A DNA stretch of 64,000 nucleotides from the NCBI RefSeq assembly GCF_000154285.1, contig NZ_DS483474.1, positions 124,001 to 188,000 of the forward strand. The letters are read 5' to 3'. The position numbers and the translations under genes were made by a program. The notes under the pieces are model-generated. The model worked only from the letters and a program-made list of their open reading frames with translations. It did not search any database and was not told the DNA's origin. Numbering within the stretch: position 1 is the first letter of the stretch; each line of letters begins with the position of its first letter. This document shows positions 3,196-13,414 of this stretch, in pieces. This DNA is from Amedibacillus dolichus DSM 3991 (lineage in GTDB: Bacteria > Bacillota_I > Bacilli_A > Erysipelotrichales > Erysipelotrichaceae).

Positions 3196-3954
3196 TTAAT
3201 CCTCCGTTTTAAATTTTAATTCTGCATATACGTATGCAAACACACCTGCAAAAATAGCGATAATCAGCATACCTAATCCGGAATACGTCTGTAAAAAGAA
3301 GCCTAATACAAAGAATAGCAGAATTCCACTTCGTGTATTTAACATTTGCAATAACATCGCAATACCGATAACAGGCAACAATCCACCGATTACACTAAGA
3401 ATATGTAATGGTGTACCTGATAACATTTCAATAGTACTCTGTACTACCGGCGCTCCTAAATACACCAATAAAGCTACTGGAATTGCTGTTACAAGATAGG
3501 CAAAAATTTGTGTAGGCCACAATTGCCAAAACGCCATTTTTTTGGTATCTCCGATTGCCGCATATTTATCCATTTTATGTACGAAATAAATATTTACCGT
3601 TTGACGTAACGTCCAAATCATCGTTCCCATAATCCCCAATGGTACAGCAATAGCGATTGCCGCTTCTGCTGTTGATCCGGAAGTTAAAGCAAGTGCGGTT
3701 CCGACAATACCACCGATACCGGCATCGGCAGGTAAGGTTCCACCGGCATTTACAAACCCTAAATATAACGTATTGATAGTTGCTCCAATGATACATCCTT
3801 GAACAACATCACCTAAAATCAAACCGGTTATCGTACCACATACAACCGGTTGACGAATAGATACACTTCCCAAGCCTGTGAGCGGTGGTGTTCCGTTATT
3901 CGTCAAATAATAAAGTGTACCTAACAAGATTGCTTGAATAATTGAAATCTCCAT
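3196..3954 (-). CDS. PTS mannose/fructose/sorbose-family IIC component
   Basis: This 252-residue integral membrane permease of the mannose family has several hydrophobic helices. The family signature is the region around TGLILGDVVQGCIIGATINTLYLG (residues about 43-66, given here in two overlapping parts: TGLILGDVVQGC and GATINTLYLG), followed by a glycine-rich AGGTLPADAGIGG loop. A GGAGAAGG site precedes the ATG, 14 bases after the IIA gene. With IID it would move the sugar for IIB-linked phosphorylation. Confidence 0.92.
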   Translation of the reverse strand: MEISIIQAILLGTLYYLTNNGTPPLTGLGSVSIRQPVVCGTITGLILGDVVQGCIIGATINTLYLGFVNAGGTLPADAGIGGIVGTALALTSGSTAEAAIAIAVPLGIMGTMIWTLRQTVNIYFVHKMDKYAAIGDTKKMAFWQLWPTQIFAYLVTAIPVALLVYLGAPVVQSTIEMLSGTPLHILSVIGGLLPVIGIAMLLQMLNTRSGILLFFVLGFFLQTYSGLGMLIIAIFAGVFAYVYAELKFKTED

Positions 3955-3968
3955 GTCCTTCTCCTTTT

Positions 3969-4388
3969 CTATATTTGAATTTTATCTCTTATACTAATGA
4001 TACTTTGATTTCCAATGCTTAAACATACATCTTTTAGTTCTTCTAAGCTCCTATAAGAAGCACTTGTTGCAACCTCCAACAGCATTGGTAAATTCACACC
4101 TGTTACGCATTCGACTTTTACACTATTCCCCAATTCATGCAAGCTTCTTGCAGTTACGTTTGATGGACTCCCACCAAACAAATCTGTTAGAACCAATACT
4201 CCATCGCTTTGCGATTGTACATTTAAACGAACAATCGCTGCTTTTACTTTTTCCTTTAATTCATCTACATCATCGCCATGATATAGACCATAACTTTCGA
4301 TCAAAGGAGCCTCCCCCATAATCAATGCCGCGCTATTTAATAGTGCTTTTGCTAAATCCCCATGTGTTACTAATAATAAAGCTACCAT
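3969..4388 (-). CDS. PTS mannose/fructose/sorbose-family IIA component
   Basis: This 139-residue cytoplasmic phosphocarrier accepts phosphate from HPr. The start was placed at 4388 because GGAGGTG lies just upstream and the protein then begins MVALLLVTHGDLAKALLNS, with active-site H9 in the usual position; an in-frame start 51 bases upstream would add a tail with no family counterpart. TDLFGGSPSNVTAR matches the conserved mid-protein motif. It is the first gene of the operon, transcribed away from the divergent regulator. Confidence 0.9.
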   Translation of the reverse strand: MVALLLVTHGDLAKALLNSAALIMGEAPLIESYGLYHGDDVDELKEKVKAAIVRLNVQSQSDGVLVLTDLFGGSPSNVTARSLHELGNSVKVECVTGVNLPMLLEVATSASYRSLEELKDVCLSIGNQSIISIRDKIQI

Positions 4389-4705
4389 ATATACACCTCC
4401 TCTTTGTATGCAAAATACCGCGATAATTTTTACATTCATATTGTAGTAAAAACATAATTCGTTGTAAAATCTGACAGTTTTTTACACATTATCAAATCTG
4501 TGTATCTCTGATAAAGCCTTTAAATAAGCACTATATATAAAATATACTAAGGTTATCAACCAAGTAAAAACACACATAATTACACTCTATCTACGAATTT
4601 CTTTCGCGAAATTGTAATATAAGAAGAAAACAACTTCATAATTTACACAATTTTCTTGCAAAATTTCCATATTTTTCTGTTATCCTTTGTATAGGAGGTA
4701 TTCTC
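4389..4705. promoter_or_regulatory. Divergent control region between the PTS operon and its regulator
   Basis: This 317-base AT-rich spacer must hold both promoters. On the plus strand a TTGCAA / TTATCC pair around 4659-4688 is a plausible promoter for the regulator, which has an AGGAGGT site at 4694-4700. At 4596-4613 there is a tight dyad: AATTTC, TTTCGC, GAAATT, containing the perfect palindrome TTTCGCGAAA (4602-4611), a candidate operator. I found no convincing TGGC-N8-TTGC element (sigma-54 promoter) on the minus strand ahead of the IIA gene. These assignments are by eye only. Confidence 0.35.
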
Positions 4706-7144
4706 ATGGATAAAAAGGAACACATCTTTCAATATATTCATAAAGACACCCTTAGCAAATTAAATAAACAGGAATATAAGGAGCTTGGTATTGATACTTT
4801 AAAAATCAGTCTTGATTTAAAAATGGATCGAGCAAATATCTCAAGAATATTGAATCAGCTCTATAATGAAGGGCGCTTAATTAAAACCAGCACTCGCCCT
4901 GTACTTTATGTCGATCGTTCTTCTTTAGATAATTATTTACAGGATTCTTTTATTCCTTCTATTATTCCTAAAGACAAAGAGCTTCAAGATTATCTAGTAA
5001 ACCAAAGCAATCCCATAAAAGCTGATTCCATAAACAGTTTTCATCGTTATATCACCAATCCTCGACATTCGAAAATGTATGAACCAATCAAAAAAGCAAA
5101 ATCTGCAATTCTCTATCCAAATAGATTGAATATTCTAATTTTTGGAGAACGTGGTTCCGGTAGATTTCAATTTGCAAAATCATTAGCGAATTATGCAAAA
5201 GAAGCTCAGGCTATTGATCCAAAATCAAAGCCAACGATCATTGAGTGTTTAAACTACAATGTTACTAACGAACAGAGCTTTCTTAAGTTAATCTTTGGAG
5301 AATATAATATAAAATCAAATATATACAAACGCGGAGTATTTCAAACAACTCAAAACAATATTATTATCTTCAACAATATTGATAATCTTCCTGCAAATGC
5401 ACTCAGTGCTTTATATAATGCCATTTTAGATAAATCCTTTGTTCCCATAAACTCTAATAAAATGATAGAGCTTAAATCATTAATTGTAGCTACTTCAACC
5501 TCTCAAGCCATTTTAGATAACATTGATATACGTCGATGCTTTCCGATGCTCATTGATATTCCTAATTTATATGATCGATCCATCGTCGAAAAAATCGTAA
5601 TTATTTTACAATATCTACAAGATGAAGCAACTTTAATTGATAAAACCATTCGTATTTCAAAAGATGCACTAAGTTGCTTTGTCATGTCAGAATATAAAGG
5701 TAATTTAGCTCAGCTTCGCTCGGAAATTCGTCAGGCATGTGCAATGGGATATCAAAACTACATAAATGAGAATTCGTTTTTCATAAATATTGAATTCGAT
5801 GAAATATCCACCTCTGTGCTTACTAATATCTTCAACATTAATGAAAGAATAAACGAATTAAACGATACTCTCAATTTATTCCATAATGATTATTTGTTTT
5901 TCTCTCCTTATCAACAAAATTCCGAACTCTTATTGCTATATGATTTAAACAGAGCTCCTAATACAGAAGATATTTCAAATGTGTGTCTGATTGATGAAGA
6001 ACTTATCAAACAATGTATTGCAGATATTGATGCCGCAAGCAGCATTCAACTAAACTCTATTCGTTCCGTTTTACTTCAAAAAATTTATGACTTAATTTAC
6101 CCTATTGTAAAAAATCATTCCATTTGTAAGAATGAAAACTTATTGTATGGGCTTCTTCATCACATTTCTAATGAAACCAATCGCTTAGCACTCGGTCAAC
6201 AAAGCTTCACTTTCTCTAGTTTAACGAGTAAAATTGCTAGAAAAAATGATTATGAATATGCTAATGAAATCAACCGTATTATTCAAAAGGAATATGACAT
6301 TGAACTATCTGATGCTGAAATTGACTATATTGCAACTTATCTATATTTATCAAGTCAATGGATTGATAAAAAATATATTCAATTATTGATCGTATCCTCT
6401 AATAAAGATATAGCTAAGAATTATGCCGATTACATTAACAGTCAATATTTTAAATCCTATACATCTTATTTAACATTTACACCAGAACAAGAAGATAACC
6501 AAATCGCACAATCAATCGTTGATAAAATGCATACAATTGATAGAGGAAAAGGAGTAATTATTGCAACGGATAGCCCCACTATATCGAAAATCAACAGTTT
6601 AATTGCCGAGCAATACCAAGGAGAATTTACTATAATCACGGATATGTCCGTACAAAAGCTCGTTTCTATTGCTGAAAAAATTGAATCTCTAGGTGTAACA
6701 ATACAATCAATGAATGTTTTTGATGATTTAAAAACCACAAAAAGCACCAGTCAAAATATTGTAGAGCCCCATGCTAAAAATTTACTACAAGATATTCAAA
6801 ACAAGCTATTATCGGAATCATTGATATTTCTAAATCCTGAAAAAGCTTGCCAAGCCTTGTTCAATATCTTATTAAACATCATAAATGATTTATCAATTCC
6901 ATATAGTGATGATTTGTTAATCAAGTTTCTATTTCATACCACATTTGCATTAGAACGCTGCATTCGAAAAGAACCTTATACATATCCTAAAGCCCGCTAT
7001 CTCATTAAAGAACATTCTAAGCTTTTTAATGTTATTGATAAAAATTTTAAAGTTATTAACGAAATATTTGCAGTTCAAATACCTACCAGTGAAATCGGAT
7101 TTATAATTGAAATTTTTCTGCCTTATTTAAACGCACCTCAATAA
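4706..7144 (+). CDS. LevR/DgaR-type PTS-regulated transcription regulator with degenerate AAA+ and EIIA sites
   Basis: This 812-residue protein has the LevR layout: an N-terminal winged helix (about 1-70), an AAA+ domain (about 120-370), PRD1 (about 440-555), an EIIA-Man-like domain (about 560-690) and a C-terminal PRD2 with a conserved histidine (FLFHTTFALER, near 744). Several key residues are missing. The P-loop reads GERGSGR (147-153), with arginine for lysine; the Walker B acidic pair is replaced in IIIFNNID (219-226); the sigma-54-contacting GAFTGA loop is not recognisable; and the EIIA strand reads LLIVSSNK where the phospho-histidine of THG should be. It is divergent from the mannose-family PTS operon and is the obvious regulator of it, probably through PRD phosphorylation. 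An ATP-driven sigma-54 mechanism looks unlikely. Confidence 0.8.
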   Translation: MDKKEHIFQYIHKDTLSKLNKQEYKELGIDTLKISLDLKMDRANISRILNQLYNEGRLIKTSTRPVLYVDRSSLDNYLQDSFIPSIIPKDKELQDYLVNQSNPIKADSINSFHRYITNPRHSKMYEPIKKAKSAILYPNRLNILIFGERGSGRFQFAKSLANYAKEAQAIDPKSKPTIIECLNYNVTNEQSFLKLIFGEYNIKSNIYKRGVFQTTQNNIIIFNNIDNLPANALSALYNAILDKSFVPINSNKMIELKSLIVATSTSQAILDNIDIRRCFPMLIDIPNLYDRSIVEKIVIILQYLQDEATLIDKTIRISKDALSCFVMSEYKGNLAQLRSEIRQACAMGYQNYINENSFFINIEFDEISTSVLTNIFNINERINELNDTLNLFHNDYLFFSPYQQNSELLLLYDLNRAPNTEDISNVCLIDEELIKQCIADIDAASSIQLNSIRSVLLQKIYDLIYPIVKNHSICKNENLLYGLLHHISNETNRLALGQQSFTFSSLTSKIARKNDYEYANEINRIIQKEYDIELSDAEIDYIATYLYLSSQWIDKKYIQLLIVSSNKDIAKNYADYINSQYFKSYTSYLTFTPEQEDNQIAQSIVDKMHTIDRGKGVIIATDSPTISKINSLIAEQYQGEFTIITDMSVQKLVSIAEKIESLGVTIQSMNVFDDLKTTKSTSQNIVEPHAKNLLQDIQNKLLSESLIFLNPEKACQALFNILLNIINDLSIPYSDDLLIKFLFHTTFALERCIRKEPYTYPKARYLIKEHSKLFNVIDKNFKVINEIFAVQIPTSEIGFIIEIFLPYLNAPQ

Positions 7145-7220: not shown

Positions 7221-7837
7221 ATGTTAGATAGAATAGAAGAATTAAACTATCTAAATGAATTATATGATAGTGAGAAGTTTGAATTTTTAGTGATGTACAG
7301 TCGAAGATGAGTTGGAAAATCAACATTGCTTCAAGAATTTTCAAAACATACAAATGCTGTCTTTTTTCCCGTACGTGAAAAAAACGATACAGCTTCATTT
7401 TGATAAACAATTTATTACACCATTTAAAAGCCGGGAAGATGCTTTTTCGTATATTGGTCATAAGGTGCAAGATCGAACTGCCCTCATCATTGATGAATTT
7501 CCATATATCATTGAAGAAAATCCTTCCGTAAAATCACTTCTACAACATGCTATTGACCATAGTTGGAAGAATAAAAATATCTTTTTAATTCTTTGTGGTC
7601 CCTCGGTTAGTGTCATGAAAAATGAAATCATGGAAGAAAAAGTCCACTGCATGATCGCCAAACCGCAACCTTGGAAATAACTCCATTCGATTATTTAGAA
7701 AGCAGTAACTTCTTCCCTAATTACAGTAATGAAAACAAGTTGATCGCTTATGGTATTTTAGGTGGTATTCCAAGATATTTGGAAGCCTTTGATGCGAATA
7801 AATCAATTCAAGAAAATGTAGCTTCTAAAACTCTTTG
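7221..7837 (+). pseudogene. Decayed AAA ATPase of the archaeal-type (DUF234-associated) family
   Basis: A good AGGAGG-like site (GGAGGAAATAG) precedes ATG 7221, and the product starts MLDRIEELNYLNELYDS. The P-loop region is broken by an in-frame TGA (SRR-stop-VGKSTLLQEF). After a frameshift near 7380 the reading continues in another frame through the Walker B segment ALIIDEFPYI, an SLLQHAIDH helix and ILCGPSVSVM. A second shift near 7670 returns to the first frame for ITPFDYLESS and AYGILGGIPRYLEAFD, then stops at 7837. This order matches single-copy ATP-binding proteins with a C-terminal DUF234 nuclease-like domain, of which nothing convincing remains. At least one stop and two frameshifts make it non-functional. 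Confidence 0.75.
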
Positions 7838-7968: not shown

Positions 7969-7997
7969 TTGCATTTCTTTACACTTTGTATTATGAT
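7969..7997 (+). promoter_or_regulatory. Candidate promoter of the aro operon leader
   Basis: TTGCAT (7969-7974) and TATGAT (7992-7997) are separated by 17 bases. The -10 is good and the -35 weak (TTG only). It would start transcription a few bases ahead of the leader-peptide ribosome site. It was chosen by position and has not been tested. Confidence 0.35.
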
Positions 7998-8018
7998 ATA
8001 AAAAATGGAGTGATCACT

Positions 8019-8051
8019 TTGGCAAATAAAAAAATGTATTATTTTAGCTGA
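8019..8051 (+). CDS. Putative Tyr/Phe leader peptide of the aro operon (10 residues)
   Basis: A TTG-initiated frame encodes M-A-N-K-K-M-Y-Y-F-S-stop (TAT TAT TTT at 8037-8045). The site TGGAGTGATC (8006-8015) closely matches the 16S rRNA complement and is well spaced from the TTG; initiation at ATG 8034 would give M-Y-Y-F-S. Three of the last four residues are the end products of the pathway encoded downstream. Two hairpins follow directly and aroB begins at 8163. This is the arrangement of ribosome-mediated attenuators such as pheL. The short length makes chance possible, but the ribosome site and the placement support it. Confidence 0.5.
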   Translation: MANKKMYYFS

Positions 8052-8053
8052 TA

Positions 8054-8103
8054 TCGTTATAAAGCCAGCAATGAGTGGTTATTTTCCATATACTTTATAA
8101 CGA
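8054..8103 (+). promoter_or_regulatory. Perfect 11-bp inverted repeat in the aro leader (possible pause/competing hairpin)
   Basis: TCGTTATAAAG (8054-8064) is exactly complementary to CTTTATAACGA (8093-8103). The 5' arm starts 3 bases after the leader-peptide stop, so a ribosome stalled on the Tyr codons would cover it. The released 3' arm could then pair with TCGTAAAAG (8119-8127) in the following terminator stem-loop (ACGA with TCGT, CTTT with AAAG), giving an antiterminator. The arms are observed; the switching model is inference. Confidence 0.5.
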
Positions 8104-8107
8104 AAAC

Positions 8108-8145
8108 AAAAGCATCTATCGTAAAAGATTGATGCTTTTTTCTTT
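8108..8145 (+). terminator. aroB: Intrinsic terminator upstream of aroB (attenuator candidate)
   Basis: AAAAGCATC (8108-8116) pairs with GATGCTTTT (8131-8139), with further ATC/GAT pairing inside after one mismatch, and is followed by TTTCTTT. It lies after the short leader peptide and 18 bases before the aroB ATG, so it would stop transcripts before the operon unless prevented. Confidence 0.7.
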
Positions 8146-8162
8146 AAGAAGAGAGGGTTAGT

Positions 8163-9167
8163 ATGAAGCTACATGTAGATTTAAAAGAAAACGGATACGA
8201 TATTTTGGTAGAGCATGGAATTCTTGCTCATATCCAAGAGGTTGTTGATTTAAAACGCAAGGTCATGATCATTACCGATGAAAATGTACCTAAAGCCTAT
8301 ACAGATACGATTGCCAAACAATGCAAGGAAGCCTATATCGAGGTTCTTTCGGCAGGAGAAGCCAGCAAACAGCTATCTACCTTTCAAGCACTTTGCGAGA
8401 AGCTTTTAAACAATCACTTTTCCCGCAAAGATTGCGTGCTTGCATTAGGCGGAGGTGTAATCGGTGATGTAAGCGGCTTTGTCGCTTCTGCCTATATGCG
8501 AGGGATAGATTTCATTCAGGTTCCAACAACAACGCTATCCCAAATTGATTCCAGCATCGGAGGCAAGGTCGCCGTAAATTTAAATGAAGTCAAAAATATC
8601 ATCGGTGCATTTTATCAGCCACGCAAGGTCATCATTGATCCCGACACCTTACAAAGTCTGCCCAAACGCCACTATATCAATGGCTTGATCGAAGCTTTAA
8701 AAGCCGGTTTAATTTATGATGCTTCCCTATTCGAGCTATTTGAAAGCGAAGATATACAAGCGGTCTATGACACCATCTTATACAAGGCACTCTGTGTTAA
8801 AAAAGCAGTTGTGGAAAAAGATGAAAAGGAACAAAATCTACGTAAAATCTTAAACTTCGGACATACGATCGGACATGCGATTGAAAGCTACTATCACCTA
8901 GAGGAATACCTGCATGGAGAATGTGTCGCCATGGGAATGCTTTATTTTATAGACGATCCCAGCCTCAAACAGCGTGTGTTGCGTGTATATGAACGCTTGG
9001 GCATTCAAAAGGAAACAAGCTTTGATCCAACAAGCATCTATCATTTACTTTGTAACGATAAAAAAGCCAGTGGCAACAGCGTTACCTGCGTGCATGTAAA
9101 AGAGCTTGGCAAAGCAGAACTGATCGAAACACCACTTGAACTATTGAAAACAAAGCTAGGAGGTTAA
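8163..9167 (+). CDS. aroB: 3-dehydroquinate synthase
   Basis: This 334-residue NAD-dependent, metal-binding enzyme converts DAHP to 3-dehydroquinate, step 2 of the shikimate pathway. Visible features are the NAD motif GGGVIGD (96-102), PTTTLSQIDSSIGGK (121-135), and the metal ligands E177 (in LIEALK), H234 (in FGHTIGH) and H251 (in LHGE). It is slightly shorter than Bacillus AroB (about 360). GAGAGGG precedes the ATG. It is the first enzyme gene of the aro operon, behind the putative attenuator. Confidence 0.95.
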   Translation: MKLHVDLKENGYDILVEHGILAHIQEVVDLKRKVMIITDENVPKAYTDTIAKQCKEAYIEVLSAGEASKQLSTFQALCEKLLNNHFSRKDCVLALGGGVIGDVSGFVASAYMRGIDFIQVPTTTLSQIDSSIGGKVAVNLNEVKNIIGAFYQPRKVIIDPDTLQSLPKRHYINGLIEALKAGLIYDASLFELFESEDIQAVYDTILYKALCVKKAVVEKDEKEQNLRKILNFGHTIGHAIESYYHLEEYLHGECVAMGMLYFIDDPSLKQRVLRVYERLGIQKETSFDPTSIYHLLCNDKKASGNSVTCVHVKELGKAELIETPLELLKTKLGG

Positions 9168-9170
9168 TTT

Positions 9171-10265
9171 ATGAAAAATACCTTTGGAAATCTATTACAA
9201 ATTACCCTATTCGGAGAAAGTCATGGAGCGGCAATCGGCTGTGTTATTGATGGATTACCTGCCGGTATTGCCATTGATGAAGATTTAATAAAAAAACAAA
9301 TGGAAAAACGCAAAGCAAAAGGTCGTATTTCCACTCAACGTCATGAAGCAGATGAGGTGCATATCGTCAGTGGCTATTTCAATGGCTATACAACCGGTAC
9401 ACCCATAACCATTCTTATCGAAAATACCAACACCAGAAGCAAGGATTATACCAAAACCCGTTATCGACTTCGTCCTTCGCATGCCGATTATTGCGCTGAG
9501 GTAAAGTATAAGGGCTATCAGGATTACCGAGGCGGAGGACATTTCAGTGGCCGATTAACCGCACCATTGGTAGCGGCAGGAGCGATTGCCATACAAATAC
9601 TGAAACAAAAAGGAATTGAGATCGCGACGCACATTGAAAATCTACATGGGATCTGTGATACACCATTTCATCACGAAGAAACCATACTCACACAACAAAT
9701 CAACAAGCTTCACGAGCTGGAATTTGCGGTATTAGATGATACTGCAGCACAGGCTATGCACTCTTGTATTGAAGATGCTGCTAAGCAGGGAGACAGTGTT
9801 GGCGGTATATTAGAAAGCTGTATTTATAATCTTCCCTGTGGAATCGGAGAACCGTTCTTTGATTCCCTAGAAAGTCATCTATCCCATCTGCTTTTTTCCA
9901 TTCCGGCAATCAAAGGCGTTTCCTTTGGTCTTGGCTTTGATTTTGCCAAGCATTATGGAAGTGAAGTAAACGATGCCTTATATTTTGATACAAAGGTAAA
10001 AACCAAAACCAACAACAACGGAGGAATTAACGGTGGAATCTCCAATGGCATGCCGATTCTTATTCATACCGTTGTAAAACCAACGCCCTCTATTTATAAA
10101 CAGCAAGATACCATAGATGCCAAAACTAAGGAAGCGGTGAAGCTAGTGATTGAAGGACGTCATGATCCGGCTATCATACATCGAGCAAGAGTTGTCGTAG
10201 ACAGCGTATTAGCGCTTGGTGTTTTGGATTTATTATTGGAAAAAGAAGCAGCTTCACATTTATAA
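9171..10265 (+). CDS. aroC: Chorismate synthase
   Basis: This 364-residue FMN-dependent enzyme converts EPSP to chorismate, the last shikimate step. The N-terminal GESHG (15-19), the RPSHADY segment, RGGGHFSGRLTAP and the C-terminal GRHDPAI motif are the family signatures. Length agrees with AroC (about 360-390). It begins 3 bases after aroB with an AGGAGG site inside the aroB 3' end, indicating co-translation. Confidence 0.96.
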   Translation: MKNTFGNLLQITLFGESHGAAIGCVIDGLPAGIAIDEDLIKKQMEKRKAKGRISTQRHEADEVHIVSGYFNGYTTGTPITILIENTNTRSKDYTKTRYRLRPSHADYCAEVKYKGYQDYRGGGHFSGRLTAPLVAAGAIAIQILKQKGIEIATHIENLHGICDTPFHHEETILTQQINKLHELEFAVLDDTAAQAMHSCIEDAAKQGDSVGGILESCIYNLPCGIGEPFFDSLESHLSHLLFSIPAIKGVSFGLGFDFAKHYGSEVNDALYFDTKVKTKTNNNGGINGGISNGMPILIHTVVKPTPSIYKQQDTIDAKTKEAVKLVIEGRHDPAIIHRARVVVDSVLALGVLDLLLEKEAASHL

Positions 10266-10287
10266 AAAACGATAGGAGAATACAATT

Positions 10288-11304
10288 ATGATTATTACAA
10301 TGAAAAAAAATACCTCTGCTCAAGATATTGCAAAGGTTATGGATCAGTTAAAGGCACAAGGCTTACAAATTCATGAAAGCATCGGCGAAAACTATAATGT
10401 GTTTGGTGTCGTTGGTGATACCAGCCGCATCGACCCAAAACGTATTGAAGCCAATCCTCATGTGGATAGCGTCGTTCGCGTTTCTTCCCCTTATAAAAAA
10501 GCAAGTCGCTTGTTTCACCCTGATGATACCATTGTAGAAGTGAATGGCATTCGTATCGGCGGCAAGGAAAAGCTTGTTGTTATCGGCGGTCCTTGTTCGG
10601 TCGAGGGTGAGGATATGGTCGTACAGTTAGCCAAAGATGTCAAAGCGGCAGGTGCTGTGATGCTTCGTGGTGGTGCTTACAAACCCCGTACCAGTCCATA
10701 CGCTTTTCAAGGCATGGGAAGTGCGGGCATTCAGGCTATGGTTGCGGCACGTAAACAAACCGGCCTTCCGATTGTCAGCGAATTGATGAGCATTGATAAA
10801 TTAGATGAATTTGTGGATAATGTAGACATTATTCAAATCGGCGCTCGTAATATGCAAAACTTTGATTTATTAAAGGCTGTTGGAAGAACAGATAAACCGA
10901 TTCTTTTAAAGCGTGGCTTGGCAAACACCATTGAGGAATGGATCATGAGTGCGGAATACATTATGAGCGAGGGCAATGAAAAGGTGATTTTATGCGAGCG
11001 TGGTATTCGTACCTTTGAACCGGCAACACGTAATACCTTGGATCTAAGTGTTATTCCGATTATTAAAAAGAAAACTCATTTACCGATCATCATCGATCCA
11101 AGTCATGCGACCGGTGATTGGGAATTGGTAGAAGCTGCTTCACTGGCGGCAATTGCGGCAGGAGCTGATGGCTTGATGATTGAGGTGCATAACCAACCGG
11201 AATGTGCATGGAGCGATGGTGCACAATCTTTACGTCCCAATCGCTTTGCAGAGGTCATTCGCAAGGGACGTGCGATTGCGAAGGTCATCGGGAGAGATTT
11301 ATAA
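10288..11304 (+). CDS. aroF: 3-deoxy-7-phosphoheptulonate (DAHP) synthase with N-terminal regulatory domain
   Basis: This 338-residue enzyme condenses PEP and erythrose 4-phosphate in the first shikimate step. Residues 1-70 form the ferredoxin-like regulatory domain seen in Thermotoga-type DAHP synthases, which bind Tyr or Phe as feedback inhibitors (family knowledge). The TIM-barrel core carries the metal ligands C103 (GGPCS), H273 (DPSHATG), E299 (IEVH) and D310 (AWSDGAQS), each one residue beyond the Thermotoga numbering. AGGAG lies 9 bases before the ATG. Feedback inhibition plus the upstream attenuator would give two levels of aromatic control. Confidence 0.94.
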   Translation: MIITMKKNTSAQDIAKVMDQLKAQGLQIHESIGENYNVFGVVGDTSRIDPKRIEANPHVDSVVRVSSPYKKASRLFHPDDTIVEVNGIRIGGKEKLVVIGGPCSVEGEDMVVQLAKDVKAAGAVMLRGGAYKPRTSPYAFQGMGSAGIQAMVAARKQTGLPIVSELMSIDKLDEFVDNVDIIQIGARNMQNFDLLKAVGRTDKPILLKRGLANTIEEWIMSAEYIMSEGNEKVILCERGIRTFEPATRNTLDLSVIPIIKKKTHLPIIIDPSHATGDWELVEAASLAAIAAGADGLMIEVHNQPECAWSDGAQSLRPNRFAEVIRKGRAIAKVIGRDL

Positions 11305-12569
11305 TGAAAGCTCATCTATTGCCATCAAAAAGCACTGGCAGCATTCATATTCCTCCTAGCAAATCTATGTCCCATCGCGCAATTATTTGTGCGGCACTTG
11401 CTCATGGAGAAAGCATAATTCAAAACGTCGCTTATTCAAAAGATATTCTCGCAACGATAGAAGGCATGAAGCAGCTTGGCGCAAGTATTCGCAAAGATGG
11501 AAGCACACTCTATATTCGAGGTGTTCAAAGCTTTCAACAGTTAGCTGCCAAGGAAATTTTTTGTAACGAATCCGGCAGCACGTTGCGCTTCTTTATCCCT
11601 ATATTTTCCTTATGCAATCAAGATATTACCTTCACCGGTCAAGGCCGCTTGCTCGATCGTCCGCAAAAGGTTTATGCGGATATCTTTCATAAGCAAGGAC
11701 TGGATTTTACCCATACACCTTCAGGCATTCACATTCATCAGTCCTTACAAGCCGGAGGGTATACACTAAAGGGAGATGTTTCCAGTCAATTCATCAGCGG
11801 CTTACTATTTGCCCTTCCATTATTAACTGAAGATTCCACAATTCACATTGAGCCACCGTTTGAATCACGTTCATATATTGATCTAACCTTGGAAATGATG
11901 GAACGCTTTGGTGTGAAGGCATACTATCGTGATGAATTTACACTATACATTCCCGGTAATCAGCAATATCAAGCCTGCAATTATACCATTGAAGGAGATT
12001 ATTCTCAGCTTGCCTTCTTTGCCGTATTAGGTGCTATTTCCAATGGTATTACCTTACATGGTGTAACGCCAAGCTCCAAGCAAGGAGATAAACAGATCAT
12101 TGATATTTTAAAACAATTTGGTGCTTTGATTGATACATTAAAGGACGGCTATCGTATTCACCCTGCCAAGCTCATAGGACAAGCTATCAATTTAGAAAAC
12201 TGTCCGGATTTAGGTCCTATTGTTTGTGTACTTGGTATGTATGGAGAAGGCACTACCCATATTTATAATGCATCTCGTTTACGTATCAAGGAAAGCGATC
12301 GCATTGCGGCAATGGAGGAGGAATTAAGAAAGTTTGGTACGAATATTACCTCTACACCGGATACGATTACCATACAGCATAACCCTAATCCGATTTGTCA
12401 AACTTCTTTATATGGGCATAACGATCATCGCATTGTCATGGCGTTAAGTGTAGCGGCAATGGCTAGCCGACAAGAAGCAATCATCGAAGATGCCCAAGCG
12501 ATTGAAAAAAGCTACCCAACCTTCTTTGAAGATTTTAAAAAAGTTGGCGGAAAGGTGGATTTGTTATGA
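11304..12569 (+). CDS. aroA: 3-phosphoshikimate 1-carboxyvinyltransferase (EPSP synthase)
   Basis: The 421-residue product joins PEP to shikimate 3-phosphate. The start was placed at the ATG overlapping the aroF stop (TAATG), where the protein begins MKAHLLPSKS; an upstream in-frame ATG would add 34 residues that merely translate the aroF end. Family motifs include PPSKSMSHRAI near residue 20, NESGSTLRFF, and RIKESDRIAAM near the C-terminus. The one-base overlap suggests translational coupling. Confidence 0.95.
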   Translation: MKAHLLPSKSTGSIHIPPSKSMSHRAIICAALAHGESIIQNVAYSKDILATIEGMKQLGASIRKDGSTLYIRGVQSFQQLAAKEIFCNESGSTLRFFIPIFSLCNQDITFTGQGRLLDRPQKVYADIFHKQGLDFTHTPSGIHIHQSLQAGGYTLKGDVSSQFISGLLFALPLLTEDSTIHIEPPFESRSYIDLTLEMMERFGVKAYYRDEFTLYIPGNQQYQACNYTIEGDYSQLAFFAVLGAISNGITLHGVTPSSKQGDKQIIDILKQFGALIDTLKDGYRIHPAKLIGQAINLENCPDLGPIVCVLGMYGEGTTHIYNASRLRIKESDRIAAMEEELRKFGTNITSTPDTITIQHNPNPICQTSLYGHNDHRIVMALSVAAMASRQEAIIEDAQAIEKSYPTFFEDFKKVGGKVDLL

Positions 12570-13414
12570 TTACAAAAGATACACGTTTTCTCATCGTCGG
12601 TCTTGGTTTGATTGGAGGGAGTTATGCTTGTGCTTTATCAAAACAGGGCTTTCATGTCGATGCCATTGATCTTCAGCAGGAAAGCTTAGATTATGCAAAA
12701 GCACAAGGTATGATCAAACATGGGGCGACACTTGGAAATGAGCTGATTCAACAAGCCGATGTAATTATTTTAGCTGTATATCCAAATGCTATATTGCCAT
12801 GGATCAAGCAGCATCAATCTCTTATTAAAACAAATGCTTTATTAACCGATGTCTGTGGTGTGAAGCAAGGAATTGTGGAAGATGTTCAAGCCATACTACG
12901 AACAGATTTGGAGTTTATTGCCTCTCACCCAATGGCGGGGAAAGAAGTCAGTGGTGTGCAATATGCCGATGACACGATCTTTCACAATGCTAATTTCATC
13001 ATTACACCTACCGGAAATAACACCATTTCCGCCATTGAATGTATGCAGGAGTTTGCTGAACTGTTAGGGTTTGCGAATATTTCGATACTAGATCCGATGG
13101 AGCATGATAAAATGATTGGTTTTGTTTCACAGTTAACCCATGCCATTGCGGTTTCTTTGATGAATACCAACGATAATACCCATCTTGTTGATTATACGGG
13201 TGATAGCTTTCGTGATTTAACCCGCATTGCTCGCATCAATGAGGTTCTTTGGAGTGAATTGTTCTTCATGAATAAAGATATCTTGATTCGTGAAATCGAG
13301 GATTTTGTAGCTGAAATCAATCATTTGAAGAATACGCTGCAAAACAATGATGAAAAAGAATTGAAGCGCCTTTTTGTTCAGGCAACCGAGCGTAGAAAGC
13401 TTTTTGATCGCTGA
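12566..13414 (+). CDS. tyrA: Prephenate dehydrogenase
   Basis: This 282-residue NAD(P) enzyme converts prephenate to 4-hydroxyphenylpyruvate for tyrosine. It has the Rossmann motif VGLGLIGGSYA (11-21), a TDVCGVK segment, and the catalytic-site motif SHPMAGKE. There is no C-terminal ACT domain. It overlaps aroA by 4 bases (ATGA) and ends the operon. pheA, aroD, aroE and aroK are not in this window, so the pathway is completed elsewhere. Confidence 0.93.
   Translation: MITKDTRFLIVGLGLIGGSYACALSKQGFHVDAIDLQQESLDYAKAQGMIKHGATLGNELIQQADVIILAVYPNAILPWIKQHQSLIKTNALLTDVCGVKQGIVEDVQAILRTDLEFIASHPMAGKEVSGVQYADDTIFHNANFIITPTGNNTISAIECMQEFAELLGFANISILDPMEHDKMIGFVSQLTHAIAVSLMNTNDNTHLVDYTGDSFRDLTRIARINEVLWSELFFMNKDILIREIEDFVAEINHLKNTLQNNDEKELKRLFVQATERRKLFDR

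Follow-up and report, generated by a model that had tools for sequence, protein, structure and literature searches.

A candidate ribosome-sensed Tyr/Phe leader ahead of an aroB operon, with counterparts across the Erysipelotrichaceae

The aroB operon and its leader

The window (the entire 64,000 nt stretch of DNA analysed) carries on its plus strand a five-gene aro operon (nt 8163–13414) with Pfam matches to PF01761, PF01264, PF00793, PF00275 and PF02153. These correspond to aroB (from nt 8163), aroC (from nt 9171), the DAHP synthase gene aroF (from nt 10288), aroA (from about nt 11295) and tyrA (nt 12566–13414), the same gene order that had been given in an earlier note on this DNA. The leader of the operon, also on the plus strand, lies between aroB and a decayed ATPase-like gene. 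The latter is apparently a pseudogene, a fragment of an archaeal-type ATPase gene in several frames (nt 7312–7680; PF01637, below cut-off), and further upstream (nt 4706–7144 and 3969–4439, minus strand) a LevR-type, PRD-containing, sigma-54-activator-like regulator stands beside an ORF resembling a PTS EIIA domain.

Reading of the sequence suggests a possible promoter, TTGCAT-17-TATGAT (nt 7969–7997), a pair that is not listed by the consensus scan, and from it transcription would be expected to start near nt 8003–8005. A Shine-Dalgarno sequence, GGAG (nt 8007–8010), precedes a leader ORF of ten codons, MANKKMYYFS (nt 8019–8051; start TTG at nt 8019–8021, stop TGA at nt 8049–8051). Strand B (nt 8054–8064), 2 nt past the stop codon, is the 5' arm of a hairpin whose 3' arm is strand D (nt 8093–8103); the B:D repeat is perfect over 11 bp and lies within 16-nt arms that are 88% complementary. 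The loop region holds an inner short hairpin (nt 8064–8079; GCCA, nt 8064–8067, with TGGT, nt 8076–8079), which is a candidate pause hairpin, as well as a loop strand, C2 (nt 8073–8085), and the hexamer TTATTT (nt 8079–8084), a match to the TTNTTT motif of NusG-dependent pausing. Strand C2 pairs with the leader ribosome-binding site, strand A (nt 8007–8019), which runs from the Shine-Dalgarno sequence to the first base of the start codon. An intrinsic terminator (nt 8108–8141) follows, with arms E (nt 8108–8116, AAAAGCATC) and F (nt 8131–8139, GATGCTTTT) and a T-run (nt 8136–8141). The TTG-initiated ORF with its ribosome site, the perfect inverted repeat and the T-tailed terminator ahead of aroB had all been pointed out in the earlier note, and are borne out here.

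Taken by itself, the window leader is not convincing as more than chance: its ORF starts with TTG, no more than three of the codons are aromatic, and the fold z-score of this sequence alone is −1.9. For this reason, the DNA upstream of aroB was compared among relatives.

Tyr/Phe leader peptides in related genomes

Regions upstream of aroB were taken from most relatives found by protein search, and a leader was defined strictly, as a short ORF whose last eight codons include four or more for Tyr/Phe. Among 89 regions upstream of aroB in this family, 53 had such an aromatic-ended short ORF, against 4.3 expected from dinucleotide shuffles. The window peptide has fewer than four Tyr/Phe in its last eight codons, and was recognised by its position and architecture. 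The 49 curated leaders average 3.0 Tyr and 2.1 Phe per peptide and contain no Trp; examples from relatives are MHNKGYYYYR, MHNKGFYYYL, MRKNAYFYYYE, MHTSKFYYFYYE, MNQTACTYFYFYYR and MIINRSYYYYYFYF. Codon counts in this set are TAT 94, TAC 47, TTT 90 and TTC 12; each residue is encoded by both of its synonymous codons, which is to be expected where the amino acid, rather than the base, is kept. A TTG start like that of the window also occurs in L241 (MNKKLYYYKN). The earlier note had proposed aligning such leaders; in the comparison the Tyr/Phe codons are kept in relatives, and both the B:D and terminator stems covary. On this comparative footing, the case for conservation beyond chance appears overwhelming.

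A constitutive, partial terminator accompanied by a chance Tyr/Phe frame in AT-rich DNA would account for the weakness of the window frame when viewed alone (see above), and TAT and TTT are indeed common because the DNA is AT-rich. Such a coincidence is very hard to reconcile with the 53 of 89 regions, with the coupled covariation described below, and with the further leader that this genome has before aroE, and it deserves practically no weight.

Some leaders depart from the usual form. In L005 and L126 the leader ORF overruns the usual stop position and ends within the hairpin, in its 5' arm in L005 and in its 3' arm in L126. The leaders of L134 (MKWRYTYY, then stop) and L137 (MKWRYKREL, then stop) look decayed by deletion, while that of their genus relative L010 is intact. 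In Lachnospiraceae/Clostridia, aromatic-rich short ORFs occur in L065 (nt 3593–3697, beginning MKMMNKKFYFYYFEKGC) and L080 (nt 4744–4806, beginning MFFNAYFYYFIKDC); these are followed by terminators and then by chorismate mutase/prephenate dehydratase-like genes, and are possibly independent Phe/Tyr leaders.

Covarying helices of class A and class A' leaders

Two leader architectures were found in the family, class A (plus A') and class B. Class A comprises the window leader and 14 others, and class A' comprises 10 aroB leaders and most aroE leaders. One cultured relative with a class A leader is Longicatena caecimuris (L033). Their common layout is a B:D hairpin 0–5 nt past the stop codon, an inner CCA/TGG hairpin, a T-run and a terminator. 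Helices were sought by a blind, window-by-window scan, in which the duplex energy within each species was compared with the energy after swapping partners between species. Across 13 class A leaders the scan returned exactly three covarying helices: B:D (z 4.7), A:C2 (z 3.6) and E:F (z 3.3). With 29 leaders of class A, class A' and aroE pooled, the swap test for B:D gave z 8.4 (own −6.5 vs swapped −2.5 kcal/mol), and E:F and the inner hairpin gave z 5.4 and z 3.3, respectively. The inner hairpin is kept in nearly all class A and A' leaders, and covaries in A' (z 2.6).

The A:C2 helix, which joins the leader ribosome-binding site to the hairpin loop, was absent from the earlier note. In the window it is GGAGUGAUCACUU:GAGUGGUUAUUUU, a 13-bp duplex of −12.3 kcal/mol, compared with −5.0 kcal/mol when the loops of other species are substituted. 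Counterparts in relatives include CAUGCGU:ACGCAUG (L009), CAUGCGC:GCGCAUG (L122) and AUAUCCAUGC:GCAUGGAUAU (L126). The swap test for this helix gave p 0.0002 (14 leaders), a value obtained on the data from which the hypothesis had been drawn, the blind scan being independent. The comparison across species demonstrates, at the level of sequence conservation, a peptide, a hairpin, a terminator and a helix between the start region and the loop.

The start-region helix was rejected for class A' (swap test, p 0.94). Leaders of class A' have an ATG near the −10 box and are without a clear Shine-Dalgarno sequence. The same arrangement, an ATG a few bases past the likely −10 box and no Shine-Dalgarno sequence, is seen in A' and many class B leaders (L011, L158, L159, L014, L143 and similar), so that leaderless transcripts may be the templates for these leader peptides. 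The terminator core GCATC/GATGC (nt 8112–8116 and 8131–8135 in the window) is nearly constant in class A and A', while the B:D arms vary freely; no pairing partner that would account for the conserved core was found in these leaders.

Folding with a parked ribosome

Strand A precedes B, and C2 precedes D, so that the A:C2 and B:D helices cross and are mutually exclusive in a nested fold. Equilibrium, nested folds were computed with the footprint of a ribosome masked (P-site −14 to +15). For the window leader without a ribosome, the probabilities of A:C2 and B:D were 0.98 and 0.02. With the A-site on the first Tyr codon these changed to 0.13 and 0.87, and with the ribosome at the stop codon to 1.00 and 0.00. 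Leaders L002, L009, L122, L124 and L127 switch like the window, and L003 is similar. In 12 of 12 class A leaders B:D drops when the ribosome is at the stop, to near zero save in L123 (0.30); the untranslated A:C2 state was absent in 4 of the 12 (L004, L006, L008 and L123). Exchange of the start region for that of another genus lowered the untranslated probability of A:C2 from 0.60 to 0.11.

Several leaders, that of the window included, are already in the A:C2 (off) state with the ribosome at the last aromatic codon, and the first Tyr/Phe codon of the cluster would therefore be the sensing one. According to these foldings, the strands left exposed by a stalled ribosome differ from those exposed by a finished one, as in an attenuator, in the window and most other class A leaders, and also in class B. 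As computed at equilibrium, the leader would behave as a ribosome-dependent switch, and its predicted input logic matches an attenuator's: the off state both without translation and after its completion, and a distinct state with the ribosome stalled at the first Tyr codon.

Class B leaders

Class B was compared in 24 leaders from several genera. Its order is stop codon, GGGC, and then strands C (AGATAATTGCC), D (GGCATTATCT..ATGG), E (CCATACGGATAATGCC) and F. Five helices emerged from the blind scan, namely E:F (z 7.5), D:E (z 4.5), peptide-end:D (z 4.3), B:C (z 4.2) and C:D (z 3.9), strand D being common to the stop-codon region, strand C and the terminator arm E. By its predicted helices, class B is a complete, textbook his-like attenuator. 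In parked-ribosome folding of L175, the terminator probability was 0.07, 0.01 and 0.02 with the ribosome mid-cluster, compared with 1.00, and in L165, L166, L161 and L159 it also falls mid-cluster and not at the stop. The other class B leaders displayed no equilibrium dip of terminator probability. A further class B leader, MIKLDKKGFYYFYYR (L240, genome G020), is on a contig with a DAHP synthase gene, away from aroB and with an extra ORF between.

Terminator control in class A

An antiterminator that excludes the terminator is present in class B (D:E) and was not found in class A. The best z for a covarying partner of the class A terminator, beyond its own arms, was 2.0 (13 leaders), and none of E or F rose above z 1.9 in the 29 pooled A, A' and aroE leaders. 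The computed probability of the class A terminator is near 1.00 in every ribosome state, and nested equilibrium folding was rejected as an account of its control, since the terminator nearly always forms. A search for strands pairing with the aroB start site gave nothing above z 2.1, the top scores being the terminator's own extension.

The scheme drawn in the earlier note was that of a classical attenuator, in which the 3' arm (nt 8093–8103), freed by a ribosome over the 5' arm, pairs with the terminator loop region (nt 8119–8127) as an antiterminator. This pairing can be drawn in part in the window, as a 9-bp match with a 2-nt bulge, but is not conserved among relatives: L002 and L003 lack the partner sequence, and no pair with the terminator or its loop exceeds z 2.0 in class A. 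The logic is also reversed, as the 5' arm would be covered by a ribosome at the stop codon, when Tyr is plentiful, and not by one stalled at Tyr. Antitermination by this route is highly improbable, and that part of the note's claim is not supported. What does find support is Tyr/Phe control mediated by a ribosome, to which the conserved codons, the hairpin after the stop codon and the terminator all point. Nor does a pseudoknot fare much better, in which B:D forms together with a pairing of its loop strand to the 5' arm of the terminator: 8 of 9 pairs can be drawn in L002, L003 and L007, but L005, L011 and L132 fail, and the mean duplex energy equals that of shuffled loops (own −4.56 vs shuffled −4.86, and so rejected as no better), making it very unlikely.

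With no base-paired antiterminator, and a terminator probability near 1 in all states, the step from B:D to readthrough is missing from the class A model. There are several options for it. Lying 5–13 nt upstream of the terminator stem, B:D might hinder the folding of the terminator or its A-tract; a tertiary contact might link B:D to readthrough; or A:C2 and its T-run might itself be the regulated stop. As no exclusive antiterminator was found in class A, the window leader is described here as working like an attenuator, and is not filed as a classical member of the trp/his type.

A candidate pause site

The NusG-dependent pause of Bacillus subtilis has TTNTTT at −11 to −6, and a hairpin 11–12 nt upstream of the RNA 3' end (PMC12288461). 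In the window, TTATTT (nt 8079–8084) comes directly after the inner hairpin (end at nt 8078–8079) and agrees in sequence with this pause element. The geometry of the motif would place the paused RNA 3' end near nt 8089, four bases before strand D begins. By eye, TTNTTT fits 12 of 14 class A leaders; most genomic occurrences of TTNTTT do not pause. The organism's own NusG has the segment RNTPGVTGF, the NT of which we take to be N81 and T82 of B. subtilis NusG. These two residues read the pause motif (PMC12288461). Polymerase may be expected to pause at TTATTT in the window leader. In tlrB and vmlR, such pauses allow time for translation of the leader (PMC6851288, PMC9226507).

The same features could be read differently: on leaders that are either untranslated or translated to the end, A:C2 and the T-run after it would act, assisted by NusG, as an early terminator or a long pause, and E:F would be a partial, constitutive terminator. 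In most class A leaders the A:C2 helix does run directly into a TTNTTT or a T-run, sites of a type on which NusG acts in B. subtilis (PMC12288461), and the lack of an antiterminator pairing with E:F would be accounted for. However, the loop would be about 55 nt, the gap from stem to T-run is 1–4 nt in most species, of the two candidate terminators E:F looks the stronger by a wide margin, and class A' is without the A:C2 helix. This reading is considered unlikely.

The combination proposed for class A, i.e. a ribosome-binding site as the partner in the off state, a NusG-type pause before the last strand, and a terminator opposed without a base-pairing antiterminator, would amount to a novel form of read-out for an amino-acid attenuator, and is put forward as a tentative possibility.

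A second leader before aroE

A covariance model, R1, was built from class A leaders and run over 316 genomes of the order. It also found paralogous leaders ahead of aroE (shikimate dehydrogenase) in relatives. The genome of the window has a second leader of this kind before its own aroE (L242, about nt 1351–1500 of contig C4), with the peptide MFLIPNHFYFYFQ followed by a hairpin (CCCGGAAAAC/GTTTTCTGGG) and then a terminator, the same architecture as before aroB. The consensus structure of R1 holds terminator pairs only, so that the aroE hits were found largely by sequence, and the terminator core GCATC/GATGC common to them is partly an effect of the search mode. From these shared architectures, the aroB operon and aroE are seen as a conserved, putative Tyr/Phe leader-peptide regulon.

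Comparison with known regulatory systems

No Rfam family matches anywhere in the window, and the leaders are without a T-box (RF00230) or other family. Elsewhere, the genome of the window has 17 T-boxes. In a sister family of the same order, a T-box precedes the aroF-aroB operon in 14 of 18 regions (L184, L182, L193 and 11 others, among L181–L200), and in the three of these that were read the presumed specifier position has UUC (Phe). No T-box was found in 20 further regions of the window's family that have no clear leader. T-boxes and the present leaders control, or would control, the same aro operon, but T-boxes have no leader peptide and the leaders of the window's family have no T-box. A leader controlled by TRAP has about 11 GAG/UAG triplets spaced 2–3 nt apart, and reading of nt 8003–8107 revealed only scattered GAG/TAG triplets. 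A scan of viral contigs with DAHP synthase gave no matches.

The earlier note had regarded a peptide attenuator in this lineage as new, which was too strong. His leader-peptide attenuators are described from Erysipelotrichales, Peptostreptococcaceae and Bacillus cereus (PMC9413887, PMC2965389), as are attenuators of hisS paralogs in Bacillus (PMC2965389). The S. aureus ilv-leu attenuator peptide is a case of leader-peptide attenuation in a Firmicute with genetic support (PMC5794164), and the uORFC-13-1 motif is a Phe-type uORF before aroF, known from 24 sequences of Acholeplasma only (PMC8632094). Leader-peptide attenuation is therefore a kind already published in Firmicutes for His, Leu and Phe; the novelty here lies in the aromatic regulon and in its variant form of the switch. 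Neither the start-region helix nor a Tyr/Phe regulon of Erysipelotrichaceae turned up in the open-access literature.

Like the trp/his-type attenuators (trpL, hisL, pheL), the present leaders have a short ORF rich in codons for the product, alternative arms just past the stop codon and a terminator before the first structural gene, and the class B relatives hold the full set of alternative helices. Class A differs in having no antiterminator that pairs with the terminator, and in an off state formed between the leader ribosome-binding site and the hairpin loop. The His attenuators share the bacterial order and an amino-acid leader peptide in a mostly T-box lineage, but belong to histidine operons, and the pause motif and start-region helix seen here are not reported in the accessible portions of those papers (PMC9413887, PMC2965389). 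Similarly, in uORFC-13-1 a uORF containing Phe codon(s) precedes a terminator and a gene of the shikimate pathway, but the motif is confined to Acholeplasma (PMC8632094); Rfam, which may not contain the motif, does not recognise it in these leaders. The ilv-leu peptide of S. aureus has Leu/Ile codons and is unrelated in sequence (PMC5794164). With vmlR and tlrB of B. subtilis (PMC9226507, PMC6851288) there is agreement in the uORF, in a NusG-dependent TTNTTT pause after a hairpin and in an off helix in which the uORF takes part; in vmlR, moreover, the pause hairpin forms the apex of an antiterminator (PMC9226507). What those systems sense, however, is antibiotics rather than charged tRNA, and in them the antiterminator and the terminator hairpin are mutually exclusive.

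Proposed mechanism and significance

Leaving the read-out of B:D out of account, the window leader is probably a ribosome-sensed switch for the aro operon that responds to the supply of Tyr and Phe. Its ten codons would be translated while polymerase pauses at TTATTT, with the RNA 3' end near nt 8089. With no ribosome, or with a ribosome at the stop codon, nt 8007–8019 would pair with nt 8073–8085 and block B:D; without B:D, the terminator (nt 8108–8141) would form and the operon would be off. When tRNA is uncharged, the ribosome would stall at the first Tyr codon, cover the start region and leave B (nt 8054–8064) free, so that B and the newly made D could form B:D and polymerase could read into aroB-aroC-aroF-aroA-tyrA. 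In this scheme, we infer translation of the leader, the pause, the starvation signal and the readthrough. Most likely, the Tyr/Phe leader turns on the aro genes when those amino acids run short.

Control of amino-acid genes in Firmicutes is mostly attributed to T-boxes and protein regulators, and here a whole family of gut bacteria appears to have a Tyr/Phe leader-peptide regulon. The polymerase of B. subtilis outruns the ribosome (PMC9226507), and attenuation sensed by a ribosome should therefore be hard. A family with leader peptides beside a sister family with T-boxes, at the same operon, is a natural setting in which to ask how such control evolves, and whether a built-in pause restores the timing that ribosome-sensed attenuation needs. 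Classes A and B would represent two solutions to one regulatory job.
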